NCBI GenBank assembly: GCA_022071945.1
Contig: JAJVIN010000005.1
Location: 62,001-126,000 of the forward strand
Reading direction: 5' to 3'
Length of the DNA: 64,000 nt
Source: Thermoanaerobaculia bacterium
Lineage (GTDB): Bacteria > Acidobacteriota > Thermoanaerobaculia > UBA5066
Positions 10,433-64,000 of the stretch are shown here, piece by piece; position 1 is the stretch's first letter; every line of letters begins with the position of its first letter. Under the pieces are notes generated by a model. It had not been told where the DNA came from and did not search any database. It saw only the letters and a list, made by a program, of their open reading frames with translations. Made by a program: the position numbers and the translations under genes.

Positions 10433-11569
10433 ATGAACGAACTCGGCCCGATCCTCCCCACTCCCGTCCGTCTCGGCGACTCGGGCCGCTACACCGGCCG
10501 AGGGGTCGCCATCGCCTTTCTCGACTCGGGCTTCTTTGCCCACGCCGACCTCGTCAAGCCCGATGACCGGATCCTGCGCTACGTGGACGTCAACCGAAAG
10601 GATGCCCGCCGGAGGGACCTCGACAGACCCGACGAGTCGAGCTGGCACGGGATGATGACGTCCGTCGTGGCCTGCGGGAACGGCTACCTTTCTGATGGCC
10701 ACTACCGGGGCCTCGCCTCCGAGGCCTACCTGATCCTCGTCAAGGTCGGGACCGCCCGGAGAATCCGGCACGACGACATCCGCCGGGGGATCGACTGGGT
10801 CATCAGGAACCGCGAGCGCTACAACATCCGGATCATGAACATCAGCTGCGGGGGGGATTTCGAGGCCTCGTACCTCACCGACCACCTCTCGCAGAGCGCG
10901 GACCGCGCCACCCGCTCAGGACTTCTCGTCTGCTCGGCGGCCGGAAACCTCGGCACCCACGCGGGACACCCCGTCTTGCCCCCGGCGTCGGCCCCCTCCG
11001 TTCTCACAGTCGGCGGCCTGGATGACAAGAACCGGCTCCTCTTCACCGGCTACGACATGTACCACTCGAGCTACGGTCCGACCCTGGATGGCCTTCAGAA
11101 GCCAGAGGTGATCGCCCCGGGAATCTGGGTGGCGGCCCCCATCCTGCCGGGCACGCCCACCGCCGCCCAGGCCGAGCTCTATTCCCGGCTGAGTGCCACC
11201 GCGGACGAGGAGCTCCGGACCGTCCTCGATGCCCATCCTGGCATCGACGAGGCCCTCGACGCGGCCCGGCACCTCGAGACCCCGATGATCCGGCAGCTCA
11301 TCGGGGCGAAGCTCCGCGACAACAACGTCATCTCCGGCGCGTATAAACACGTGGACGGCACGAGTTTTGCAGCCCCCATCGTTTCATCGATCGCGGCCCA
11401 GATGTTCGAGGCCAATCCCGCGCTGACTCCCCAGCAGGCCAAGAGGATCCTGATGTCGACGGCCCGGCGGCTGCCGCACGTCGAGCCGGAAAAGCAGGGC
11501 TGGGGGGTCGTCGACGTCCGCCGGGCCGTCGAGGAGGCAGAACGGCTGGCCCGGCCCGGCACTTCTTGA
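10433..11569 (+). CDS. Subtilisin-like (S8) serine protease without a signal peptide
   Basis: A 378-residue protein with the full subtilase triad in order: Asp in AFLDSGFF (~residue 31), His in SSWHGMMTS (~72), the oxyanion Asn in CSAAGNLG (~174) and Ser in DGTSFAAP (~308). Before the Ser motif there is an inserted helical segment of about 70 residues rich in Glu, Ala and Leu. Neither a signal peptide nor a propeptide is obvious, so it probably works in the cytoplasm or by an unusual export route. It is divergent from the peptide transporter gene at 8857-10350, and the two may share a regulatory gap (10351-10432). Protease plus peptide transporter could form a peptide-processing pair; that is inference. 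Confidence 0.88.
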   Translation: MNELGPILPTPVRLGDSGRYTGRGVAIAFLDSGFFAHADLVKPDDRILRYVDVNRKDARRRDLDRPDESSWHGMMTSVVACGNGYLSDGHYRGLASEAYLILVKVGTARRIRHDDIRRGIDWVIRNRERYNIRIMNISCGGDFEASYLTDHLSQSADRATRSGLLVCSAAGNLGTHAGHPVLPPASAPSVLTVGGLDDKNRLLFTGYDMYHSSYGPTLDGLQKPEVIAPGIWVAAPILPGTPTAAQAELYSRLSATADEELRTVLDAHPGIDEALDAARHLETPMIRQLIGAKLRDNNVISGAYKHVDGTSFAAPIVSSIAAQMFEANPALTPQQAKRILMSTARRLPHVEPEKQGWGVVDVRRAVEEAERLARPGTS

Positions 11570-11653
11570 CCGGCCCCGATTCAATCACCTGCCGGTGAGC
11601 AGAACGACTCTGTCCGGAACACCTTCAGGGTGTCGCCCGCCTTGACTCTTTGC

Positions 11654-11659
11654 TAACCT
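11654..11659 (+). promoter_or_regulatory. -10-like hexamer TAACCT
   Basis: TAACCT lies 18 nt before the ATG of the gene at 11678 and fits the TANNNT element seen repeatedly in this window. No convincing -35 is visible at 16-18 nt. Confidence 0.4.
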
Positions 11660-11677
11660 TCACCGAGCGGGGGGACC

Positions 11678-12328
11678 ATGAATCGAGTCACACTCCTTCG
11701 TCGTTCAACTCTCCTGGGATCAGCGCTCGCCCTATCTGCCTTCCTCCTACCGGCCCAGGGGCTCCTGGCCGAGGAAAACGCCGCCTCTCAGGTGAAGCGC
11801 GACAACTTCCAGGTCTTCCAGATTTCGGGCAACTTCAAGGTCGACGCCATTCGGCTGTTCGAGGTTTCGCCGAACTCTCCCGGCCGGCTGGTCTGGATCG
11901 AACCGGATGGCTCGGTCCGCTCCTCCACGGACGAGGACTTCCTCAGGCTCGTTCCCGCCTTGACGACCGAATCCAGCGCGAGGAAGCCTCAGAAGGTCAA
12001 GGGACTCTTGACCGTTCTCTTCCGCAACGTCGAGTTGACCCGGATGTTCTTCGAGACGGACAAGGTCGCGACCTTCTCCTTCGTCGAGAAGAACGCCGAG
12101 CTCGAGATCGCCAGCGTCGTCATCTCCGATCCGGGACCTCCACCGCCGACTTACAGGATTGCGTTCGCCTGGCGCTACAAGAAGAAGGAGAAGGTCAAGG
12201 ACACCGGCTCGGCCGTCGCCAACGCCATGGAAGGACAGGAAGTCCCGGTGCAGCTCGCCGGATCGTCCATGGAGGACGACATCAAGGTGAAGTTCCTCGT
12301 CGAGGAGCCTCCGGCTCCCGCCCAGTGA
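11678..12328 (+). CDS. Secreted protein of unknown function
   Basis: A 216-residue protein with a clear Sec signal peptide (NRVTLLRRSTLLGSALALS..., cleavage predicted after QGLLA). The mature part is mixed alpha/beta without a recognised motif; it contains several aromatic strands and a KKKEKVKD basic turn and ends in a Pro-rich tail. A GGGGGG ribosome site precedes the ATG, and a strong terminator follows at 12364, so it is a single-gene transcription unit. Location is probably periplasmic or outer-membrane associated. I do not recognise the family. Confidence 0.7.
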   Translation: MNRVTLLRRSTLLGSALALSAFLLPAQGLLAEENAASQVKRDNFQVFQISGNFKVDAIRLFEVSPNSPGRLVWIEPDGSVRSSTDEDFLRLVPALTTESSARKPQKVKGLLTVLFRNVELTRMFFETDKVATFSFVEKNAELEIASVVISDPGPPPPTYRIAFAWRYKKKEKVKDTGSAVANAMEGQEVPVQLAGSSMEDDIKVKFLVEEPPAPAQ

Positions 12329-12363
12329 TCCTGGCCTGACGTCGCCTCGCCACGCGAGGGGAG

Positions 12364-12398
12364 CCGCCCGGAGAAGAATCTCCGGGCGGTTTTGTTTT
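12364..12398 (+). terminator. Strong Rho-independent terminator
   Basis: An 11-bp perfect stem (CCGCCCGGAGA / TCTCCGGGCGG) with a 4-nt AGAA loop is followed directly by TTTTGTTTT. It ends the transcript of the secreted-protein gene at 11678. Confidence 0.9.
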
Positions 12399-12462
12399 GT
12401 GCTCTCGCCGGCCACTCCCCGAAGGCTGGACTCCGGACACCCGGCACGCGCAGAATGCTCGC

Positions 12463-14052
12463 ATGGCGAAGACTCCGCTGTTCCGCCTCCTGCAGAGAAG
12501 CCTGCAGAATGCCCTCCGTTCCTCTGCCGCCGAATCGGACAAGACCGTCCTCTCCGATGCCCTCTCGCGCCGGCGATTCCTCGTGACGTCGGGCGCCGCG
12601 ACCGCCGGCCTGGCGCTCTCGCACTGCGGGCCCGGCCAGAGCCCCGCCCCCGTCACGGCTCCGGCCGTCCGGGCCACGACCGAGGACGCCATCGTCGTCG
12701 GAGGCGGCCTCGCTGGCTTGACCGCGGCCTACCGTCTGAAACAGGCGGGCGTCACGGCGGGCGTCTACGAGGCCCAGGAAAGAGTGGGGGGACGCGTCCG
12801 CTCCCTGCGCGGCCACTTCCCGGATGGGCAGGTCGCCGAGCTCGGCGGAGAGCTCATCGACACTCCTCACAAGCGCGTCAGGGGGCTTGCCTCGGAGCTC
12901 GGCCTGGAGGTCGAGGACCTTCTGGACGACCATCCCGACCTCTCCAAGGCCATTCTCTTCTTCGAGGACAAGCGCCTCGATCCTTCCACGCTCGAGAAGG
13001 CCTTCGCCCCCTTCGGCTCGAAGATAAGAACCGATCTCGACTCTCTGGGAAAGAACCCCGACCCGACCTACAAGAACCCGGGGAACGCCCAGACCCTCGA
13101 CCGGATGAGCCTCTCGCAGTGGTTCGACCGCTCCGGGTTCGAGGGCTGGCTCCGCCAGCTCCTGGACGTCGCCTACGTGACGGAATACGGCCTCGAAGCC
13201 TCGGAACAATCGGCCCTCAATTTCCTCCTGATGATCGACCCCGCGCTCGGAAAGGACATGAAGTTCTTCGGCGAGAGCGACGAGCGGTTCCACATCAAGG
13301 GAGGAAACGACCAGATCCCGAGAAAGCTGTCGGAAAAGCTGCCCGGCCAGATCGAGTTCGGGGCCCGGCTCGAATCGATCCAGTCTTCCCCGTCGGGCGG
13401 GTATGTCCTGTCGTTCCGCAGGGGGACGGCCTCCTTCGAGAAGCGGACGGGCTTTGTCCTTCTGACCCTCCCGTTCTCGGTTCTCAACTCGGTCGAGATC
13501 AAGCTCGACCTGCCCGAGCGGAAGAGACGCGCCTTTCTCGAGCTCGGCTACGGCACCAACGGGAAACTGATGCTCTCGTACGGCAGCCGCATCTGGAGAG
13601 GCAAGCACAAGTCGAATGGGAGCGTGATGACCGACCTGCCGTCCCAGATGTTCTGGGAGACGAGCCGCCGCCAGGCTGGCGCCGCTGGCATCATCACCAA
13701 CTTCTGCGGCGGAAGGCGCGGCGTGACCCTGGGCCAGGGAACTCCCGAGCAGCAGGCCCTCATCGCCGCCGGTGATTTCGAGAGGATCTTCCCTGGATCG
13801 GCGGGTACTCACAGCGCCGAGAAGGCCGTGAGATTTCACTGGCCCCTCAACGAGTTCTCGCTCGGGAGCTATGCCTGCTACCGCCCCGGCCAGTGGACCG
13901 AGTTCCGGGGTGTGGAGGGAGAACCCGCCGGCCGCCTCTTCTTCGCGGGCGAGCACACGTCCCTGACCGCCCAGGGCTACATGGAAGGAGCCGTCGAAAG
14001 CGGCGAGAGGGCCGCCAAGGAGATCCTGACCGCCATGGGCAAGGCCCGCTGA
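12463..14052 (+). CDS. FAD-dependent amine oxidase with Tat-type export signal
   Basis: A 529-residue flavoprotein of the monoamine-oxidase/phytoene-desaturase superfamily. Residues ~35-60 hold a twin-arginine signal (SRRRFLVTSGAATAGLAL) followed by a Cys in LSHCGPG that could be lipidated. The dinucleotide-binding loop VVGGGLAGLTAAYRL and EAQERVGGRVRS follow. Near the C-terminus, GRLFFAGEHTS and GYMEGAVESGERAA bind the FAD pyrophosphate in this family. The usual reaction is oxidation of a primary or polyamine to an aldehyde, ammonia and H2O2. Tat export fits a cofactor loaded before transport. ATG 12463 is the simplest start; no good ribosome site is visible. A membrane-protein gene follows after 9 nt and is probably cotranscribed. 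Confidence 0.85.
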   Translation: MAKTPLFRLLQRSLQNALRSSAAESDKTVLSDALSRRRFLVTSGAATAGLALSHCGPGQSPAPVTAPAVRATTEDAIVVGGGLAGLTAAYRLKQAGVTAGVYEAQERVGGRVRSLRGHFPDGQVAELGGELIDTPHKRVRGLASELGLEVEDLLDDHPDLSKAILFFEDKRLDPSTLEKAFAPFGSKIRTDLDSLGKNPDPTYKNPGNAQTLDRMSLSQWFDRSGFEGWLRQLLDVAYVTEYGLEASEQSALNFLLMIDPALGKDMKFFGESDERFHIKGGNDQIPRKLSEKLPGQIEFGARLESIQSSPSGGYVLSFRRGTASFEKRTGFVLLTLPFSVLNSVEIKLDLPERKRRAFLELGYGTNGKLMLSYGSRIWRGKHKSNGSVMTDLPSQMFWETSRRQAGAAGIITNFCGGRRGVTLGQGTPEQQALIAAGDFERIFPGSAGTHSAEKAVRFHWPLNEFSLGSYACYRPGQWTEFRGVEGEPAGRLFFAGEHTSLTAQGYMEGAVESGERAAKEILTAMGKAR

Positions 14053-14061
14053 GAGCGCGGG

Positions 14062-14940
14062 ATGACCTGGCTTTCGGAGAGACCTTCACGGGTCTTCTGG
14101 ACGGCTCTCCTGATCACACTGAGTTCCGTGGTCTGGCAGAGGATGACGGGACCGACGTACCCCGTGCGAGGAAGCCAGCAGGTCGGCCCCGCCTCCGTCT
14201 CCTACCGCCTTCTGCGGAGTCACAGCTCGAATGAGAGCCAGCCCGTCGAAGTCTCGGTCGAGAACGGTCCCGTCTCGGGCGTCATCCTCTGGCGCCATTA
14301 CCCTCTGGAGGAACCCTGGTCGAGGGTGCCGATGCGCGCGACGGGGAACGGGCTGAAGGGCCTCTTGCCCGCGCAGCCGCCGGCCGGGAAGCTCGAGTAC
14401 CAGGTGCTCCTCATGGCCGGAAGCGAGACCGCCCTGATACCGGCACGGCCCGCCGTCACCCGGTTCAAGGGCGATGTGCCGGCCAACATCCTGCTCCCGC
14501 ACATCCTCGCGATGTTCGGCGCGATGCTCTGGTCGACGGCGGCGGGTCTGAAGGCCCTCGCCGGAAGAGAAGATCTCCGGACGGACGCGATCGGCACGTT
14601 CCTCCTGATCGCCCTGGGAGGCTTCCTCTTCGGCCCTCTGGTTCAGAAGGCAGCCTTCGGGAAGTACTGGACGGGATTCCCCTACGGCCACGATCTGACG
14701 GACAACAAGACCCTGATCGCGGGGGTGTTCTGGGGGGGAGCTCTCCTCCTGCTATCGAGCAGAAGGCTCGGCCGTGCCGCGGTCGTCACGGCCGCGGCGG
14801 TGACCCTTCTGGTCTTCGCCATCCCTCACAGCCTCTTCGGGTCGCAACTCGACTGGAAGAAAGAAGGCCAGAGTCCGTCCCCTCAGCGCCCGGTCAGCTC
14901 TTGCCTTCCTCCGCCATCTTCAGGGCCTTGGCACGCCTGA
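14062..14940 (+). CDS. Membrane protein with N-anchor, extracytoplasmic domain and C-terminal helices
   Basis: A 292-residue protein. A hydrophobic helix near residues 12-30 is followed by a ~110-residue soluble beta-rich region (GPASVSYRLLRS..., GVILWRHYP), then about four transmembrane segments from residue ~150 (ILLPHILAMFGAMLW, TFLLIALGGFLFGPL, ...). It lies 9 nt after the amine oxidase gene and is likely in the same operon. Its last 47 nt overlap the 3' end of the convergent MarR gene, so the Pro/Ser-rich C-terminal tail may be poorly constrained. No family name is certain. A role as a membrane partner of the exported oxidase is inferred from context alone. Confidence 0.7.
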   Translation: MTWLSERPSRVFWTALLITLSSVVWQRMTGPTYPVRGSQQVGPASVSYRLLRSHSSNESQPVEVSVENGPVSGVILWRHYPLEEPWSRVPMRATGNGLKGLLPAQPPAGKLEYQVLLMAGSETALIPARPAVTRFKGDVPANILLPHILAMFGAMLWSTAAGLKALAGREDLRTDAIGTFLLIALGGFLFGPLVQKAAFGKYWTGFPYGHDLTDNKTLIAGVFWGGALLLLSSRRLGRAAVVTAAAVTLLVFAIPHSLFGSQLDWKKEGQSPSPQRPVSSCLPPPSSGPWHA

Positions 14941-15340
14941 CGACGTGCTCCAGGCCCTCCAGGAGGCCCCGCGCCGCTTCGCGGCTGAGTCCGTGGAGAA
15001 GCTGGGCCTCGAGGCGGGCCAGGTCTTTTTCCTGCTCGGTGGCGGCCTTCTTACCCTCTGCTGACAGCCTGACGAGAGAGATCCGGCTGTCGTAGGGCGC
15101 CGGCCGCCGCGCCACGAGACCCTGCTTTTCCATGTCCTGGATCGTGCGGGTCACCGTCGCCGGATCGGAGCCAAGCCTCTCGGCAATCTCGGACTGCGAC
15201 AGCTCGGCCACCGATGCGAGGAGGCGCAGGAAATAGAGCCTCGACTCGGGCGCGCCGCTCTGCCGGGCGAAGACTCGGGCGACCAATTGATAGGCGAGAC
15301 CTAGATCGGTCACGAGCGCCAGATCAGAGTGCTTCTTCAT
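14894..15340 (-). CDS. MarR-family transcriptional regulator
   Basis: A 148-residue winged-helix protein of standard MarR length. The recognition region LSQSEIAERLGSDPATVTRTIQDMEKQGLVARR is followed by the wing DSRISLVRLSAEG, both typical of the family. These regulators usually bind inverted repeats as dimers and respond to phenolic or hydrophobic ligands. No divergent target gene lies directly beside it. Upstream there is no Shine-Dalgarno, but a TAACCT hexamer lies 15 nt before the ATG. Its 3' end overlaps the convergent membrane-protein gene by 47 nt. Confidence 0.88.
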   Translation of the reverse strand: MKKHSDLALVTDLGLAYQLVARVFARQSGAPESRLYFLRLLASVAELSQSEIAERLGSDPATVTRTIQDMEKQGLVARRPAPYDSRISLVRLSAEGKKAATEQEKDLARLEAQLLHGLSREAARGLLEGLEHVVRRAKALKMAEEGKS

Positions 15341-57507: not shown

Positions 57508-58041
57508 CTACCTGCCCACGCTCGTCGCCATGACGACGGTCTGCTGGAGGACCTTCCCGTTCCTCGGATCGATCAGGTGATCCTCGACCGCGATCTGGAG
57601 CGTCTCGTCGTCGGAGGTCCACCGGGCATACCTCATCACCTTGTCCCGGTAGGTCTTTTCCGTCTCGGGTGAGATGGCAAAGCCCTTTTCTTTCGAGAGG
57701 TCCGCGATGTCGCCCAGGATGTTGCGCTCGCCGAAGAGAAACCGGGCCCCCGCGATGTCCTTCGCGTAGAACCCCGTCACTTCCTCGATCTTGCTTCCCG
57801 TCACCCAGACCGCGATCTTGAGCTTGGAGAGCTTCGCCCGGATCTGCTTCTTCACAGAGTCCGGCTGGGAGGTGTCCTTGTCCATCTCGGCGAGGAGCTT
57901 CTTCGTCTCCTCCTGCGCCCGCTCGTTGGCGATCTTCGTGAGCTCTGGTTCGAGAACGCCTCCCGGTGGAGCCGGGACGCCAGGGACGGGAGAGGGTGAG
58001 GACCCGAGGGCGAGGATGAGGACCGCGGCCAGAACAGACAT
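57508..58041 (-). CDS. Secreted protein of unknown function
   Basis: A 177-residue protein with a short signal-like segment (SVLAAVLILALGSSPSP) and a Pro-rich spacer. The mature domain is helical then mixed, containing KLKIAVWVTGSKIEEVTGFY and VEDHLIDPRNGKVLQQTVVMA; a DHLI-DP element and many charged residues are visible, but no family. ATG 58041 has no ribosome site; TAGAAT ends 8 nt before it, suggesting a leaderless mRNA. It lies between a convergent hybrid-kinase stop and a rhomboid-like gene on its own strand. Confidence 0.65.
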   Translation of the reverse strand: MSVLAAVLILALGSSPSPVPGVPAPPGGVLEPELTKIANERAQEETKKLLAEMDKDTSQPDSVKKQIRAKLSKLKIAVWVTGSKIEEVTGFYAKDIAGARFLFGERNILGDIADLSKEKGFAISPETEKTYRDKVMRYARWTSDDETLQIAVEDHLIDPRNGKVLQQTVVMATSVGR

Positions 58042-58049
58042 AGAGCCCG

Positions 58050-58055
58050 ATTCTA
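58050..58055 (-). promoter_or_regulatory. -10-like hexamer TAGAAT 8 nt before an ATG
   Basis: GGTTAGAATCGGGCTCTATG on the minus strand. The core and flanks match those before the FmdB-type gene (18526). Confidence 0.5.
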
Positions 58056-58060
58056 ACCAG

Positions 58061-58984
58061 CTACTCCCGATTCTTGATGACGATCTCCCCGGGCTTTCCG
58101 GCCACGTACCGAAGGGAACACTCGGCAAAACCCTCGCATTTCAGGCAGATCCTGTCCTTGTCACCCTTGAAATCTATGGGCTTGCAGATGTTCACCCCGG
58201 GCACCACGAGCTTGGCGAGGTCCGAGGCGAACTCCTTCGATTCGGGCCCGAGCTCTCCCCCCGCCCGGGTTGCTTCCCTGAGCCTTTCCACTTTCGGGAA
58301 GAGCTCGCGGTTGCGCTTCTCGAGAGTGTCGTCGACCCTGACGGAGCTCGCCGTCTTGACGGCCTGCACCGCCTGTCGCGCGACGCGCCTCGCGTGGCTT
58401 CTGCCCCGCTCTCTCGCCCAGAAGTAGAGGAACCCGGCGGAGGCTCCCATCAACCGGACGGCGGCTGGCGCCAGTCCCCGCATCCTCAGATCCGCGAAGA
58501 AGTCGAAGGCGAGGAAGGCCGCGCCGAGGAAGGCCAGCCACTTCACCTTGACCGGGATCACGAAGAACATGAAGAACTGCATGTCGGGGAACAGGTAGGC
58601 GTAGGCGAAGAGCATCGAGACGGGCACGACGAAGGGATCGGTGTGAAGAGGCGTTCCCACGACGAAGGCCGAGAGGGACCCCCCGAGCGTCGCCACCAGC
58701 CAGAAGACCGTGAACTCCTTCGTTCCCCACTCGGTCTCGAGGGCGGAACCGAGGATGTAGAGGGCCATGGCTCCGAAAAAGAGGCTCAGGGGCCCGGAGT
58801 GCAGGAACTGGTAGGTGATGGCCGTCCAGGGGGCCGCGAGGACCTTCCACGGCTCGAAGGCGAAGATCGCGAGAGTCTTGCCAGGGTCGGCGACCTGCAA
58901 GAAAAAGAAGATGAAGTGAAGCCCGCAGAGCGGGAGGGTCAATCCGAGTTTTGGGGCGAAGAGATCTCGCCCGTCGTGGCTCAT
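58061..58984 (-). CDS. Rhomboid-like membrane protein lacking catalytic residues
   Basis: A 307-residue protein with about six hydrophobic helices followed by a ~100-residue charged C-terminal domain. TYQFLHSGPLSLFFGAMALY and GSALETEWG correspond to rhomboid TM2-3. At the catalytic Ser position the text is VVPVSMLFAYAY, not GxSG, and the TM6 His is replaced (VRLMGASAG). It is therefore probably an inactive pseudoprotease. The C-terminal part has four Cys (NICKP, CLKC, ECS) that could bind metal. ATG 58984 is the first start consistent with the membrane topology. The role may be membrane-protein binding or quality control. Confidence 0.75.
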   Translation of the reverse strand: MSHDGRDLFAPKLGLTLPLCGLHFIFFFLQVADPGKTLAIFAFEPWKVLAAPWTAITYQFLHSGPLSLFFGAMALYILGSALETEWGTKEFTVFWLVATLGGSLSAFVVGTPLHTDPFVVPVSMLFAYAYLFPDMQFFMFFVIPVKVKWLAFLGAAFLAFDFFADLRMRGLAPAAVRLMGASAGFLYFWARERGRSHARRVARQAVQAVKTASSVRVDDTLEKRNRELFPKVERLREATRAGGELGPESKEFASDLAKLVVPGVNICKPIDFKGDKDRICLKCEGFAECSLRYVAGKPGEIVIKNRE

Positions 58985-59208
58985 GTCCGGTCCGCCTCTT
59001 GACGCCTCAGGCCTCACCGGGCCTGCCGCCCGTCGAGGTTCGCATGCGGGAAGGATGCAGGCAAGTGACGGAGTCCCCAAGGGAACCGAACCGCTTAGGT
59101 TAGGTTCTTCTCGTGCCGACCGTGCTCCGGGAGAAGGGCTTCGAATTCAGGATCTTCGCGTCCGATCACTCGCCCGCTCAAAGTTGCATGAATCTGACTT
59201 CAGGAAGG

Positions 59209-59241
59209 AGCCCCGGGGGAGAGCCTGTCTTCCCCGGGGCT
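59209..59241 (-). terminator. Hairpin downstream of the tandem coiled-coil genes
   Basis: A 10-bp stem AGCCCCGGGG / CCCCGGGGCT with a 13-nt loop, 8 nt beyond the stop at 59249. CCTTCCT but no T-run follows on the minus strand. Confidence 0.5.
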
Positions 59242-59248
59242 ATCCTGA

Positions 59249-59854
59249 CTAGGTCCGAATCGGTTCGGGAAGCTGGATGGAGGCCATGGCGGTGATGGCG
59301 TCTTGGCAGGTTGCGAACTGCTTCTCGGCCGAGGCTATCTCGGCGGACATGCCCGCCAGGTTGCGGATCAGGGCGGCCGCGACGATCCGCTCGCGTGCCG
59401 CTCGGATGGCACCGTCGGCCGCGTTCATGCGGCCGTCCGCCTGCTTGAGGAACAGGTGCAGGCGGCGTTCGAAGACCGCGATTTCGGACTTGACCCTGTT
59501 GTTCGTCACGGGGTCTTTGATGGTACCGAGCTGGATGCGTGCCGCCTTGAGAGTCTCTTCTCCGCGGATGCGAACGTCCTCCACGGAGCCGCGGAGTCGT
59601 TCCAGTTCGGCGCGGTGGCGCTCCACGAGCTGGTCGCCGGTCTCGGAGACCACGCTGGTGTCTCCGGGAGCCGCGTTCTCGATGATCTTGGCGGCCTCCT
59701 TGCTCGCGATGGCCATGTTCCGCGACGTCTCTGTGCGGGTCTTCTCGTAGGCCTTGACGGCGGCACCGTACTCGGAGGCCTTGGGGGTGGAGTTCAAGAA
59801 GAGAGGCACCCCGAGAAGCAGGGCACCTGCGGTGGCGAGAGAGATTCGCTTCAT
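59249..59854 (-). CDS. Anchored coiled-coil protein, paralogue B of a tandem pair
   Basis: A 201-residue protein. An N-terminal hydrophobic segment (ISLATAGALLLGVPLFLN) is followed by YGAAVKAYEK and long amphipathic helices to the end. Near-identical landmarks with the upstream paralogue (59997-60620) are SVEDVRIRGEE, RVKSEIAVFERRL, AARERIVAAALIR and CQDAITAMASIQLP. About half of all aligned residues are identical by eye. The single Cys near the C-terminus is conserved in both. AGAAAGAAGG-type spacing precedes the ATG. No named domain. Probably membrane-anchored or secreted, with a helical bundle facing the periplasm. Confidence 0.72.
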   Translation of the reverse strand: MKRISLATAGALLLGVPLFLNSTPKASEYGAAVKAYEKTRTETSRNMAIASKEAAKIIENAAPGDTSVVSETGDQLVERHRAELERLRGSVEDVRIRGEETLKAARIQLGTIKDPVTNNRVKSEIAVFERRLHLFLKQADGRMNAADGAIRAARERIVAAALIRNLAGMSAEIASAEKQFATCQDAITAMASIQLPEPIRT

Positions 59855-59996
59855 GGTCTTTCTCCTTCTTTCCGGGGAAGTGATCCCCCGTACGTCTCTC
59901 TGATCGGCACAATGCGTGGCTGATTCGGGAGTTCTTGGTGTTTGGTGGACAGGGAGGCCGGGTGGCCGATGAAGGCCACCCCGCTGTGGGTGATCG

Positions 59997-60620
59997 CTAG
60001 GAGGAGACGAGTGGTTCGGAGGGGAGCTGGATGGAGGCCATCGCGGTGATGGCGTCCTTGCAGTGGCGCAAGTCTTTCTCGGCCGAGGCGATAGTCGTAC
60101 CCATGTCTCTGAGGTCGCGGATGAGGGCAGCGGCGACGACCCTCTCGCGTGCGGCGGCGATCGCGGTTTCGGCTGCCTTCAGCTCGGTTTCGGCCTTGGA
60201 GAGGAAGGACACCAGCTGCCGCTCGAAGATCGCGATCTCGGACTGGACACGGGAGACGGTAGCGGGATCGGAGAAGGTGGCCAGCTGGGCCTTTGCAGCC
60301 TTGGCCTTCTCCTCTCCCTTGATCCGGACGTCCTCGACGGTGGCGCGGACCTTCTCGACCTCTGAGCGGTGCGTGTCGACGAGCTGGTCGACGGTCTGGA
60401 TGACGGCGACGGAGTCTCCGGAGCCGGCCGTCCGGATGGTGGACGTGGCTTCGACGGAGGCCACCTTCATCGCGTTGGCGGCCTCGGAGACACTCTTGTT
60501 GTACTCGTTGACGGCCTGACCGTAGGTGGTGGACTTCCGGGTGAAGCCCGTGACGAGGACGCCACCTGCGATCAGGACGGCGGCGGTGATGAGGACGAAG
60601 TACTTTCCGGCACGGAACAT
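59997..60620 (-). CDS. Anchored coiled-coil protein, paralogue A of a tandem pair
   Basis: A 207-residue protein. The N-terminal helix (YFVLITAAVLIAGGVLVTG) looks like an uncleaved anchor. Then YGQAVNEYNKSVSEAANAMK and two long helical hairpins follow, with TVEDVRIKGEE, RVQSEIAIFERQL, AARERVVAAALIR and CKDAITAMASIQLP shared with paralogue B. AAAGGAG is 6-7 nt before the ATG. It lies 187 nt downstream of the DUF4407-like gene and 142 nt upstream of paralogue B. Function unknown; the shared helices suggest the two copies form a hetero-oligomer. Confidence 0.72.
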   Translation of the reverse strand: MFRAGKYFVLITAAVLIAGGVLVTGFTRKSTTYGQAVNEYNKSVSEAANAMKVASVEATSTIRTAGSGDSVAVIQTVDQLVDTHRSEVEKVRATVEDVRIKGEEKAKAAKAQLATFSDPATVSRVQSEIAIFERQLVSFLSKAETELKAAETAIAAARERVVAAALIRDLRDMGTTIASAEKDLRHCKDAITAMASIQLPSEPLVSS

Positions 60621-60807
60621 GACGGACTCCTTTCATATCGGTGCGGTTTGGCACCGTCTTTGGTGAGGACATCGGAAGAAAGAGGGACTCTGGACGAAAG
60701 ATTCGGCCGGCCTGTTCTGTCTTCTTCAGTGGTAGGGAACCGGCTGCGGTCAGAAGGGAAAGCCGGCGGGAGCGACTGACTTCCGCCGGCTCCGATGCGG
60801 TACGCCC

Positions 60808-61845
60808 TCAGTCGATGGACGGAGGGAGCTTCAGGCGAGCCCTGACGGCCGCTTCGTGGTGGACGGCCAGTTCATCCGCGAGTGTCCGCCCGAGTTGCAG
60901 CTTGTAGAGGATCGGGAACAGCTCGACGAAGATCAGAAGCAGTGAGAAGAGGATTCTCGCCACCGCCACGACCGTGCTTCGGGCGGAGAGTTCGTTGAGA
61001 GCCTGGAGTTCGATCGTGATGTCGCGTTTGCCGAGGTAGCTACGTCCGGATGCCTCGGCCTTGCGTACGAGATCACCCTGAGAAGCCTCGAGTTCCCTCT
61101 GGATCTCCGCGATCCTGGGTTCGTTCTTCTGAAGGACGGCCCTGAGCCGCTGCTCTTGCCGGACCTTGATGAGCTTCTTTTCGGCTGCGGAACTTCCGTG
61201 GCCACGCAGTCCACTGCCGGCAACCGCGTCGATCTCGTCGGTCAAGGCCTTCTCGGCTCGCCGGAGGGTGTCTTCATGTTCCGTGGACTCCATTCGAAGC
61301 CGGTAGATCTCGTCCTCCATGGACTTCCTCCTGGAGGCAGCATCGGCCTGATGGGCGCGGGATTCCTCCCTTTCGATTCGCTGGGCGGTTTCTTCCTTCT
61401 GCTGGCGGATCGCGTCCCTGAAGACGAGAAGACCGAGGGGTTCGGCCACCATCACGGAGAGGAGCAGGGAGATCGCCAGCCTGATCACCAGAAGGGATGC
61501 CCGCCAGGCGGAGACCTTGCTCGCGATCATCGAAGTGACGAGGGAAGTGTCGATGTTCCAGACGATCGCCGCCCATCCGAGGGCAATGTAGTAGGAGTAG
61601 ACGGACTTGGAGACGAGGAAGGCGACGTAGAAGCAGGATACGAACGCGAGCAGGGTGTTGAGGAGGACTCCCATGCCGACGTGCATGTAGCGTCTCTGCT
61701 CGAGCCTGGAGGGAACCACGAACTCCGGGGGGACACCCGACAACTGGATGAGGAATCGGGTGAACAGGCCGGGAAGGTCACGGCTCGGCTGATCTGGGAT
61801 CCCGGAAGAATCTTCAGGCACCGGTCTTCGAAATTCATGAATCAT
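60808..61845 (-). CDS. DUF4407-like multi-pass membrane protein with cytosolic coiled coil
   Basis: A 345-residue protein. Residues ~55-145 contain three hydrophobic segments with YMHVGMGVLLNTLLAFVSC and WAAIVWNIDTSLV, which I associate with DUF4407 proteins. A ~130-residue charged coiled coil (QQKEETAQRIEREESRAHQ...) follows, then a last helix (VAVARILFSLLLIFVELFP) and a short tail. DUF4407 proteins are widespread but have no established function. It starts 7 nt after the transglutaminase-like stop with GTGAGG upstream, so the two are coupled. Confidence 0.8.
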   Translation of the reverse strand: MIHEFRRPVPEDSSGIPDQPSRDLPGLFTRFLIQLSGVPPEFVVPSRLEQRRYMHVGMGVLLNTLLAFVSCFYVAFLVSKSVYSYYIALGWAAIVWNIDTSLVTSMIASKVSAWRASLLVIRLAISLLLSVMVAEPLGLLVFRDAIRQQKEETAQRIEREESRAHQADAASRRKSMEDEIYRLRMESTEHEDTLRRAEKALTDEIDAVAGSGLRGHGSSAAEKKLIKVRQEQRLRAVLQKNEPRIAEIQRELEASQGDLVRKAEASGRSYLGKRDITIELQALNELSARSTVVAVARILFSLLLIFVELFPILYKLQLGRTLADELAVHHEAAVRARLKLPPSID

Positions 61846-61852
61846 GGTGGCC

Positions 61853-62731
61853 TCACTTCTCGGCCGGCACGAGGCGGCCGTCGACCTCGATGAAGTGGGT
61901 GACGTGAAACGGGGCGACGGAAGCTCGAGGTTCGCACACCAGCCAGGTTTCCTCGTTTCTCGTGACCAGATGAGCGAGTCCTCCGAATGACGGCTCCGTT
62001 CCCGGGGGAAGTCTTCCCATTGGCCTGGTCTCGAACAGGATCTCGGCCCAGGCGTGACCGCGGGCTCCGGCTTCTCCGAGGGCGATCCTCCCGTGAAAGC
62101 CGAGTTCCCGAGCGATTGCGACGATTACGGCTGCGCGGTCTTCGCAATCGCCCTCACGAGTCCTGAGGGAGACGGAGACCGGCTGGATGGTGTCTTCGCC
62201 GGGATCGAGCCGGTGACGCCAGGTCTTCTGGAGATCGATGAGGATGCGGGAGATGAGCTGCCCCTTGTCGAGTCCGGCGGGCTGGGAGGCTATCCAGGAG
62301 CGGACGGCGTCGGAGTCGGACAAGGCAACGGGGAGCTCGCCGGCGAAGGACTCGAGGGTCTCGCACTCGGGACTCCTCATCGCGAGGAACGGAGTGGCCC
62401 CGGCAAGAAGGACGAGGCCGAGCAAGGTCACCCTACCTGCGGGAATCGGGATCCTCTTCCGGAGTTCCTCCACCCTGGACATCTGGGCTGGTTCCGCTTC
62501 CAGGGGGGGCCAGTAGTTACGGAGCTTCTCCTGCGTATCCAGTTCGAATATGGCCCGCCCGGCGAAGAGCGAAACTGCGAGGTTCATGGAGAAGAAGCCG
62601 AGAGCGAGGAGGGCCGCAGCGAACCAGGGGGGCTCTCCGAGTATTCGGAGGATGGCACCCGTTTGAAGAACGGCAGAGACGACGAGGTAGATGGTGCCCA
62701 GGACGGAGCCAAGGCGTTGTGCTTTGGACAT
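61853..62731 (-). CDS. Membrane protein with transglutaminase-like domain
   Basis: A 292-residue protein. Three N-terminal hydrophobic segments (residues ~8-28, ~33-52, ~98-117) precede an extracytoplasmic domain. RTREGDCEDRAAVIVAIARELG supplies the nucleophilic Cys, ARGHAWAEI the His and TWLVCEPRAS an acidic residue at the third position, the order of the transglutaminase/cysteine-protease fold. In bacteria such domains usually act as proteases or amidases. It is the first gene of the DUF4407 cluster. AAGGGA precedes the ATG. The target could be the neighbouring coiled-coil proteins, which is inference. Confidence 0.8.
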   Translation of the reverse strand: MSKAQRLGSVLGTIYLVVSAVLQTGAILRILGEPPWFAAALLALGFFSMNLAVSLFAGRAIFELDTQEKLRNYWPPLEAEPAQMSRVEELRKRIPIPAGRVTLLGLVLLAGATPFLAMRSPECETLESFAGELPVALSDSDAVRSWIASQPAGLDKGQLISRILIDLQKTWRHRLDPGEDTIQPVSVSLRTREGDCEDRAAVIVAIARELGFHGRIALGEAGARGHAWAEILFETRPMGRLPPGTEPSFGGLAHLVTRNEETWLVCEPRASVAPFHVTHFIEVDGRLVPAEK

Positions 62732-63163
62732 CTTCTTTCCCTTCTTGAGCCAGACGCTTCTCCGGGGCTCACCATCTCAATCGGATGAAGCCGCCAGAAT
62801 CGGCGAAAGATGTGAGTCGAATCTTCCAAGAGGAGGAAGTCGTCGCATGGCCCCTCGTGGTGACGTCCGCGGGGACATGCGACCGGAGAGCCCGCCCAGA
62901 GAGCCTCCAAGACCGTACGCGGCACTCACGAGAACGGGCTGCGGCGGAAATGGGGCCGAAGCACCCCGCGATCAGTGCAGGGAAGCTCACTTTCAGGTCA
63001 ACCGCTGGACTTTCGAGGGGGAGCCCGTCCTCACGCGCGATCGCCCGGGACAGGGCACTGGCACCGTGCGGCAGCCGCAGGCCGAACGATCAAGGCCGTC
63101 CCGGCGATGAACCCTGCCTGCACGCCGCTCGTCAGCAGGTGCCTGCCGCAGACGCCGAGCACA
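62732..63163. other. Noncoding gap of about 430 nt
   Basis: Between the transglutaminase-like start and the HD-gene stop I find no convincing gene. Frames on both strands lack family motifs, ribosome sites and normal composition. The promoter of the 59.2-62.7 kb cluster should lie in its left part. Confidence 0.6.
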
Positions 63164-63676
63164 TCACCTGGAAACGTACCCCATGGATCGAGCCAACTCG
63201 TGCAGGGATCGAAAGAGGGAGGAACCAGAAAGGCCTCGGGACTCGGCCAGTGAGAGGATTCCGACGGTCGACTCGATCACCCGAGGTTTCTCTCTGTACA
63301 GAGCATCAAACACCGAGAACCTGGACGAGAGGTTGTCGTACCGATCCGCGATTCGGACCAGGATGGCCTCCACGGGAGCCAATTGCAGGCGACGGAGGAC
63401 ATCCATGTCGTTCTGTCCCGGGCTCTTCGTGAGCAGACCGACGATACACTGGGTTTTGTCCGGGAACCCGTCGATTGTGTGCGATGTGTCTTCGAGGACG
63501 TCGTGCAGGAGGGCCGCCGCGATCGTCTCCGAGTCCACGGAGGGGACATTAGAAGAGACGAGGATGGCAACGCCGAAGGGATGTAGCAGAAAGGGATCAC
63601 CGTTTCGCCGAAGTTGTCCAGCATGAGCGATCCGGGCGACCTCGCGCGCGAAAGCAACTAGCTGGGTAGAGTTCAT
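63164..63676 (-). CDS. Small HD hydrolase resembling ppGpp hydrolases (MESH1/SpoT N-domain-like)
   Basis: A 170-residue single-domain protein. ARIAHAGQLRRNGDPFLLHPFGVAI and AAALLHDVLEDTSHT reproduce the HD-site text of RelA/SpoT and MESH1 hydrolases (His, HD in LLHDVLEDT), and LVRIADRYDNLSSR matches the later Asp/Asn block (KLADRLHNM in RelA/SpoT). It has no synthetase, TGS or ACT domain, so it would be a small alarmone hydrolase that converts (p)ppGpp to GDP/GTP plus pyrophosphate. A perfect TAGGAGGT ribosome site 6-7 nt upstream fixes ATG 63676. Alternative: a related nucleotide hydrolase such as an NADPH phosphatase. Confidence 0.8.
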   Translation of the reverse strand: MNSTQLVAFAREVARIAHAGQLRRNGDPFLLHPFGVAILVSSNVPSVDSETIAAALLHDVLEDTSHTIDGFPDKTQCIVGLLTKSPGQNDMDVLRRLQLAPVEAILVRIADRYDNLSSRFSVFDALYREKPRVIESTVGILSLAESRGLSGSSLFRSLHELARSMGYVSR

Positions 63677-64000
63677 GACGATACCTCCTATGGGCAGAAA
63701 CAAACTGCCTGCTTTGGCCTCCCCAAAAAGGGAGGACGCCCCTGTCGAGAGGCCGCCTATTCCGAAGTACGATGTCGAAGTGCGCTCGCACTTCCTGACC
63801 GAATCGCGGTTCGGCGTCCGTGGCGTCCATCGCATCATCGGACGGCAGCGGCGATGCCCCTCCGCGCAGCCGAAACACCTGTAGGGCCAACTCTGTCATC
63901 AAGGCGAGCAGTGACGTGACATCAATGACGAGCAGCGGCAGCGAATGCCCAGGGCGCGCCTCCGCAAGCCGAATCCGATGCGGTACCGTCTCAGTTGGTG
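63677..64000. other. Right-edge region, possible partial gene on minus strand
   Basis: About 320 nt with no firm gene. One minus-strand frame is open from the window edge (~63998) leftward and includes a hydrophobic stretch (HSLPLLVIDVTSLLALM), but it would run 80 nt into the HD gene past its ribosome site, so I treat it as doubtful. Confidence 0.3.

Follow-up and report, generated by a model that had tools for sequence, protein, structure and literature searches.

Four neighbouring genes in a Thermoanaerobaculia genome (6.17 Mb, 69 contigs) very probably belong, as accessory cargo, to a genomic island specific to their lineage, whose insertion at the junction of mutL with a rhomboid gene was recognized by sequence comparison with relatives. 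They lie in the window, by which we mean the whole 64,000-nucleotide stretch that was analyzed (contig C4, positions 62001-126000), and encode a transglutaminase-fold membrane protein, a short DUF4407 protein, and two paralogous helical proteins, CC1 and CC2 (Table 1). The newly found fact is this genomic context, a 13.7-kb island at the mutL-rhomboid junction, where a second, incomplete copy of the cluster was found as well.

Table 1. Features of the cluster and its island. Plain coordinates are window positions; those that begin with L005 lie on a record of the same region that continues beyond the window.
Feature	Position	Strand	Description and basis
Transglutaminase-fold membrane protein	61853..62731	-	292 aa; Pfam PF01841, E=1.2e-8; hydropathy; residue positions
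Short DUF4407 protein	60808..61845	-	345 aa; Pfam PF14362, E=4.6e-46; alignment with relatives; hydropathy
CC1	59997..60620	-	207 aa; N-terminal membrane anchor and predicted three-helix bundle; no family
CC2	59249..59854	-	201 aa; CC1 paralogue; signal-peptide-like N-terminus
Hairpin	59210..59240	-	Perfect 9-bp G+C stem, GCCCCGGGG...CCCCGGGGC, 13-nt loop; direct sequence reading
86-bp element 5' of transglutaminase gene	62761..62846	-	79% repeat beside second-copy DUF4407 remnant
HD-domain hydrolase, small-alarmone-hydrolase-like	63164..63676	-	170 aa; Pfam HD_4, E=1.2e-11, over cut-off
In-window part of 13.7-kb island	58985..64000	.	Rhomboid start at 58984; mutL stop at L005:16682 (window-equivalent 72681)
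Partial second copy of cluster	L005:15089-16211		Beyond window
Four orphan ORFs	L005:9587-11482, 11445-13061, 13070-13930, 14190-15053		631, 538-584, 286, and 287 aa

Genomic context of the cluster

In six relatives belonging to several genera (G005, G003, G011, G004, G002, and G008), mutL and the rhomboid gene adjoin; the stop codon of the first and the start codon of the second overlap (ATGA or GTGA) or are at most a few bases apart, and no island protein was found at any of these six mutL-rhomboid loci. The same two genes are 13.7 kb apart in the cluster genome, and the intervening DNA, which runs past the end of the window, has a GC content of 0.616, compared to 0.656 ± 0.004 (minimum, 0.645) for 122 nearby tiles of equal length that overlap one another. 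Counted from rhomboid, the island holds CC2, CC1, the DUF4407 gene, the transglutaminase gene, and an HD gene, and further on an ISAzo13-family transposon (PF07592 transposase, E=1e-145; imperfect terminal repeats), orphan ORFs, and the partial second copy. It is the combination of an empty site in relatives, low GC content, and a cargo of transposon and orphan genes that leads us to read the cluster as island cargo.

The block of orphan ORFs (L005:9587-15053) has a GC content of 0.593. Its four members fall into no family, and for two of them neither 147 class genomes nor 396 phylum genomes yielded a relative. The 286-aa ORF very weakly matched a sigma factor (E=0.013). A Lon protease domain, suggested by eye for the ORF at L005:9587-11482, was dropped after a genome search with Pfam Lon_C missed it. 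The ISAzo13 transposase was the only mobility gene recovered, no integrase being found on the island, and no direct repeat over 10 bp was found between the island ends, where repeats of 9 to 10 bp occur at chance level. On the rhomboid side, the rhomboid gene and the exported protein of ~177 aa that follows it (window 57508-58984), to which no family was assigned, are kept beside mutL across the family.

The HD gene lies upstream of the cluster on the same strand, as the initial annotation had reported, at a distance of 432 nt, which places it outside the cluster's tight unit. As for its likeness to alarmone hydrolases, the RelA/SpoT model TIGR00691 (NCBIfam) matches over its first 131 positions with E=7.7e-18, a score far under the model's curated full-length cut-off, as expected for a single domain.

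Coding evidence and gene products

All four ORFs of the cluster are true coding genes, given that their GC content is 0.76 to 0.88 at codon position 3 and 0.42 to 0.49 at position 2. The initial annotation had described four genes in the same direction, a 7-nt spacing of the first two, and membrane or exported products throughout; each of these points was borne out, with every gene on the minus strand and membrane-spanning or signal segments predicted by hydropathy in all four products. The transglutaminase and DUF4407 genes are the pair separated by 7 nt, and the gaps from DUF4407 to CC1 and from CC1 to CC2 are 187 and 142 nt. Directly 3' of the CC2 stop lies a hairpin without a clear T run after it, which is a possible transcript end. 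At the other end of the cluster lies the 86-bp element, and nowhere in the genome but here and beside the DUF4407 remnant of the second copy is there a strong match to it.

The transglutaminase-like protein matches Transglut_core with 35.6 bits (cut-off, 23). Hydropathy predicts about three N-terminal membrane segments (residues 7-32, 37-55, and 94-118), and a catalytic domain follows at residues 160 to 270. The complete Cys-His-acid set that had been claimed for it calls for a correction in its acid: Cys196 and His226 are present, and the third position reads Glu267 (in "CEP," residues 266-268, by direct reading) in place of the usual Asp. Because the structure model of the enzyme is poor (pLDDT 44), a fold comparison was meaningless and was discarded. 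Within the class, relatives were domain-level matches only, in open frames of at least 700 codons, and no close relative was found; nor were relatives of the gene found in plasmids or viral contigs.

The second product matches DUF4407 with 157.9 bits (cut-off, 31.3) over profile positions 10 to 296 of 297. By hydropathy the protein has three N-terminal membrane segments, a helical stretch of ~150 residues, and a last membrane segment at residues 292 to 310. DUF4407 proteins occur in 8 of 149 class genomes, the cluster genome included, at 25 to 30% identity, and exceed the Pfam cut-off in 5 of 297 phylum genomes. No transglutaminase or CC gene was found beside the class relatives, whose neighbors differ; at two loci of one family the neighbor is an asparaginyl-tRNA synthetase-like gene. 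Directly upstream of DUF4407 in three Acidobacteriota genomes lies a helical family of ~190 aa (L024:8112-8684, L027:2345-2917, and L029:8046-8615). Its members share 17 to 30% identity (E down to 2e-33), have no evident membrane segment, and are unrelated to CC1 and CC2; judged by sequence and position, they may form a conserved two-gene module with DUF4407. Prevotella Lak phages (~540 kb) also encode a DUF4407-like protein (L086:4001-4864 of MK250016.1, 24% identical over 83% coverage, and five other records). No published function for the DUF4407 family was found in the literature searched.

CC1 and CC2 are the tandem paralogues that the initial annotation had recognized, being 53% identical (E=5e-68) with dN of 0.44 and dS of 0.77. 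Neither reaches the cut-off of any Pfam family; a reading of CC2 as Phage_lysis (Rz) was rejected at 15 bits (cut-off, 25.4) and looks like a coiled-coil coincidence. The initial annotation had called the pair coiled-coil proteins; CC1 need not be an extended coiled coil, since its AlphaFold2 model, built from the CC1/CC2 alignment, folds into a compact bundle of three helices (32-64, 70-113, and 119-195; pLDDT mostly 71 to 93). Comparison of this model with the PDB returned generic helical bundles only (best E=0.06). Charges flank the CC1 membrane segment on both sides, leaving its orientation ambiguous.

A CC1/CC2 profile gave nothing convincing against 148 class relatives (two stray matches, E about 0.006 to 0.008) and found nothing in 396 phylum genomes. 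No relative was recovered either when about 85,000 species genomes and 2.9 million viral contigs were scanned, each set with two short peptide patterns, which distant relatives can escape. A phage or plasmid origin of the pair was set aside, there being no match in viral contigs, phages, or plasmids. With no relatives of CC1 or CC2 and with other neighbors beside the DUF4407 relatives, the four-gene set appears unique to the cluster genome as far as our searches reach.

A partial second copy and apparent gene conversion

Read from mutL, the second copy shows first the 86-bp element (79% identity), then the final ~54 codons of DUF4407 (89% at the protein level), and then an entire CC1. Missing at a single junction are the transglutaminase gene and the bulk of DUF4407, and the copy has no CC2. 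The duplicate match extends over 1,040 bp at a distance of 11.14 kb. The second CC1 (L005:15141-15764, equal to contig C4 positions 133140-133763) is 100% identical to the first at the DNA level, 11.1 kb away, without a difference in 207 codons, and ~90 bases upstream are identical too. Differences between the copies are confined to the DUF4407 tail and its surroundings, plus one base downstream of CC1. The two tails of DUF4407 have diverged, with 10 of 53 third codon positions changed (dS 0.24, dN 0.05). A diverged tail next to an identical CC1 is hard to fit to one age of duplication, and so the CC1 tract was apparently kept or re-copied, with gene conversion the simplest reading of the sequences. 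The main caveat on the identical copies is an assembly error at the repeat. Recombination between these direct copies would delete 11.1 kb, enzyme gene included.

A 39-bp element upstream of the HD gene (L005:7969-8007) is 82% identical to window positions 60785-60823, at the DUF4407 stop and the region upstream of CC1. It may be a shared regulatory element, a third remnant of the DUF4407 tail, or chance.

A tentative periplasmic assembly and its rivals

Our preferred explanation combines island cargo, a periplasm-facing helical assembly built on DUF4407, and a duplication with conversion; taken as a whole it falls somewhat below an even chance. Combined with hydropathy, the positive-inside rule would most simply put the enzyme's catalytic domain, the helical stretch of DUF4407, and the bundles of CC1 and CC2 on the periplasmic side. 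DUF4407 would then be a polytopic inner-membrane anchor with a helical arm, against which CC1 and CC2, as membrane-tethered three-helix-bundle partners, could pack. The transglutaminase-fold protein probably shares a transcript with DUF4407, and its putative Cys-His-Glu domain, placed in the periplasm, may act on the helical partners by processing or linking them. The locus was duplicated; the second copy no longer has the enzyme or the greater part of DUF4407, whereas its CC1 was either retained or copied anew, most simply by gene conversion. Both the topology and the fold of CC1 are predictions, and the island comes from comparison with relatives.

That the products form a common periplasmic assembly has, in our estimate, nearly an even chance, and it is distinctly doubtful that the enzyme acts on CC1 and CC2; both the enzymatic step and the complex are things we infer. 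Consistent with an assembly are the membrane segments in all four products, the 7-nt gap, and the small helical genes beside DUF4407 elsewhere (L024, L027, and L029). Against it, no conserved neighborhood in any other genome searched ties the enzyme to DUF4407 or to CC1 and CC2, the second copy retains CC1 without the enzyme, and the longer gaps, of 187 and 142 nt, could each hold a promoter of its own. The initial annotation had proposed one envelope system: the identities, order, orientation, and envelope location of its parts held up, but a conserved set was absent from the other genomes searched. A lack of conservation of the gene set elsewhere had been named beforehand as what would refute the proposal, and within the limits of our searches no conservation was found.

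The same spacing is compatible with the four genes not being one system at all: a transglutaminase-DUF4407 operon with 7 nt inside the pair might adjoin, by chance, an independent and amplifying pair of exported helical proteins, set apart by the wider gaps. Such a pair would account for an intact second CC1 accompanied by neither the enzyme nor a full DUF4407, and for the repeated duplication that CC1, its copy, and CC2 represent. We consider it unlikely but deserving of weight; the duplicated unit reached from a point 5' of the transglutaminase gene to beyond CC1, and since the second copy holds the 86-bp element, the DUF4407 tail, and CC1, a single duplication once took in all three of the enzyme gene, DUF4407, and CC1. 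The island could instead carry anti-phage or other conflict genes, the membrane proteins serving as sensor and effector and the HD hydrolase and orphan ORFs as parts of a defense island. An island location, patchy presence, the weak sigma-like hint in one orphan ORF, and the occurrence of DUF4407 in Lak phages fit this idea; a PADLOC search with ten island proteins, however, gave no convincing match (best E=0.011, over short coiled-coil stretches), and the asparaginyl-tRNA synthetase-like gene beside DUF4407 in one family is not defense-like, so we regard it as improbable. Neutral, decaying cargo without current function is quite improbable as well: the partly deleted second copy, the inserted transposon, and the possible third DUF4407 fragment of 39 bp, if it is not chance, suggest decay, but none of the four main ORFs is broken and all are strongly biased in their codons, and dN/dS is under 1 both for CC1/CC2 and for the DUF4407 tails. 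Extending the periplasmic assembly to a new kind of mobile envelope module, in which the enzyme processes or links the three-helix-bundle pair on DUF4407 and recombination keeps or changes CC1 dosage through identical copies 11 kb apart, is a long shot.

Significance and comparison with known systems

Our firm conclusions are that an island carries the cluster as cargo and that the cluster has a duplication history of its own. The idea of an envelope assembly is plausible, and supporting conservation was not found in the genomes searched. An operon pairing DUF4407 with an enzyme and exported helical partners would make a small, testable system, and the island illustrates gain, duplication, and homogenization of envelope genes; on present evidence, the value lies mainly in annotating accessory DNA in a poorly studied phylum.

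The transglutaminase-fold protein resembles the bacterial transglutaminase-like superfamily (PF01841), in particular its TgpA-like members, in its Cys and His motifs (GDCED and GHAW) and its membrane-anchored N-terminus. Unlike TgpA-type membrane transglutaminases, it scores under the TgpA_N cut-off (17.5 versus 30 bits), and it departs from the superfamily norm in having Glu for Asp, a length of only 292 aa, and no close class relative. The DUF4407 protein differs from its nearest aligned relatives, to which it is 25 to 27% identical, in lacking their C-terminal part, whereas its full-domain match, three membrane segments, helical region, and last membrane segment are those of the family. As for the island, although it has neither an integrase nor flanking direct repeats above chance, it shares with lineage-specific islands at housekeeping operons a precise insertion, a different GC content, a transposon, and orphan genes.
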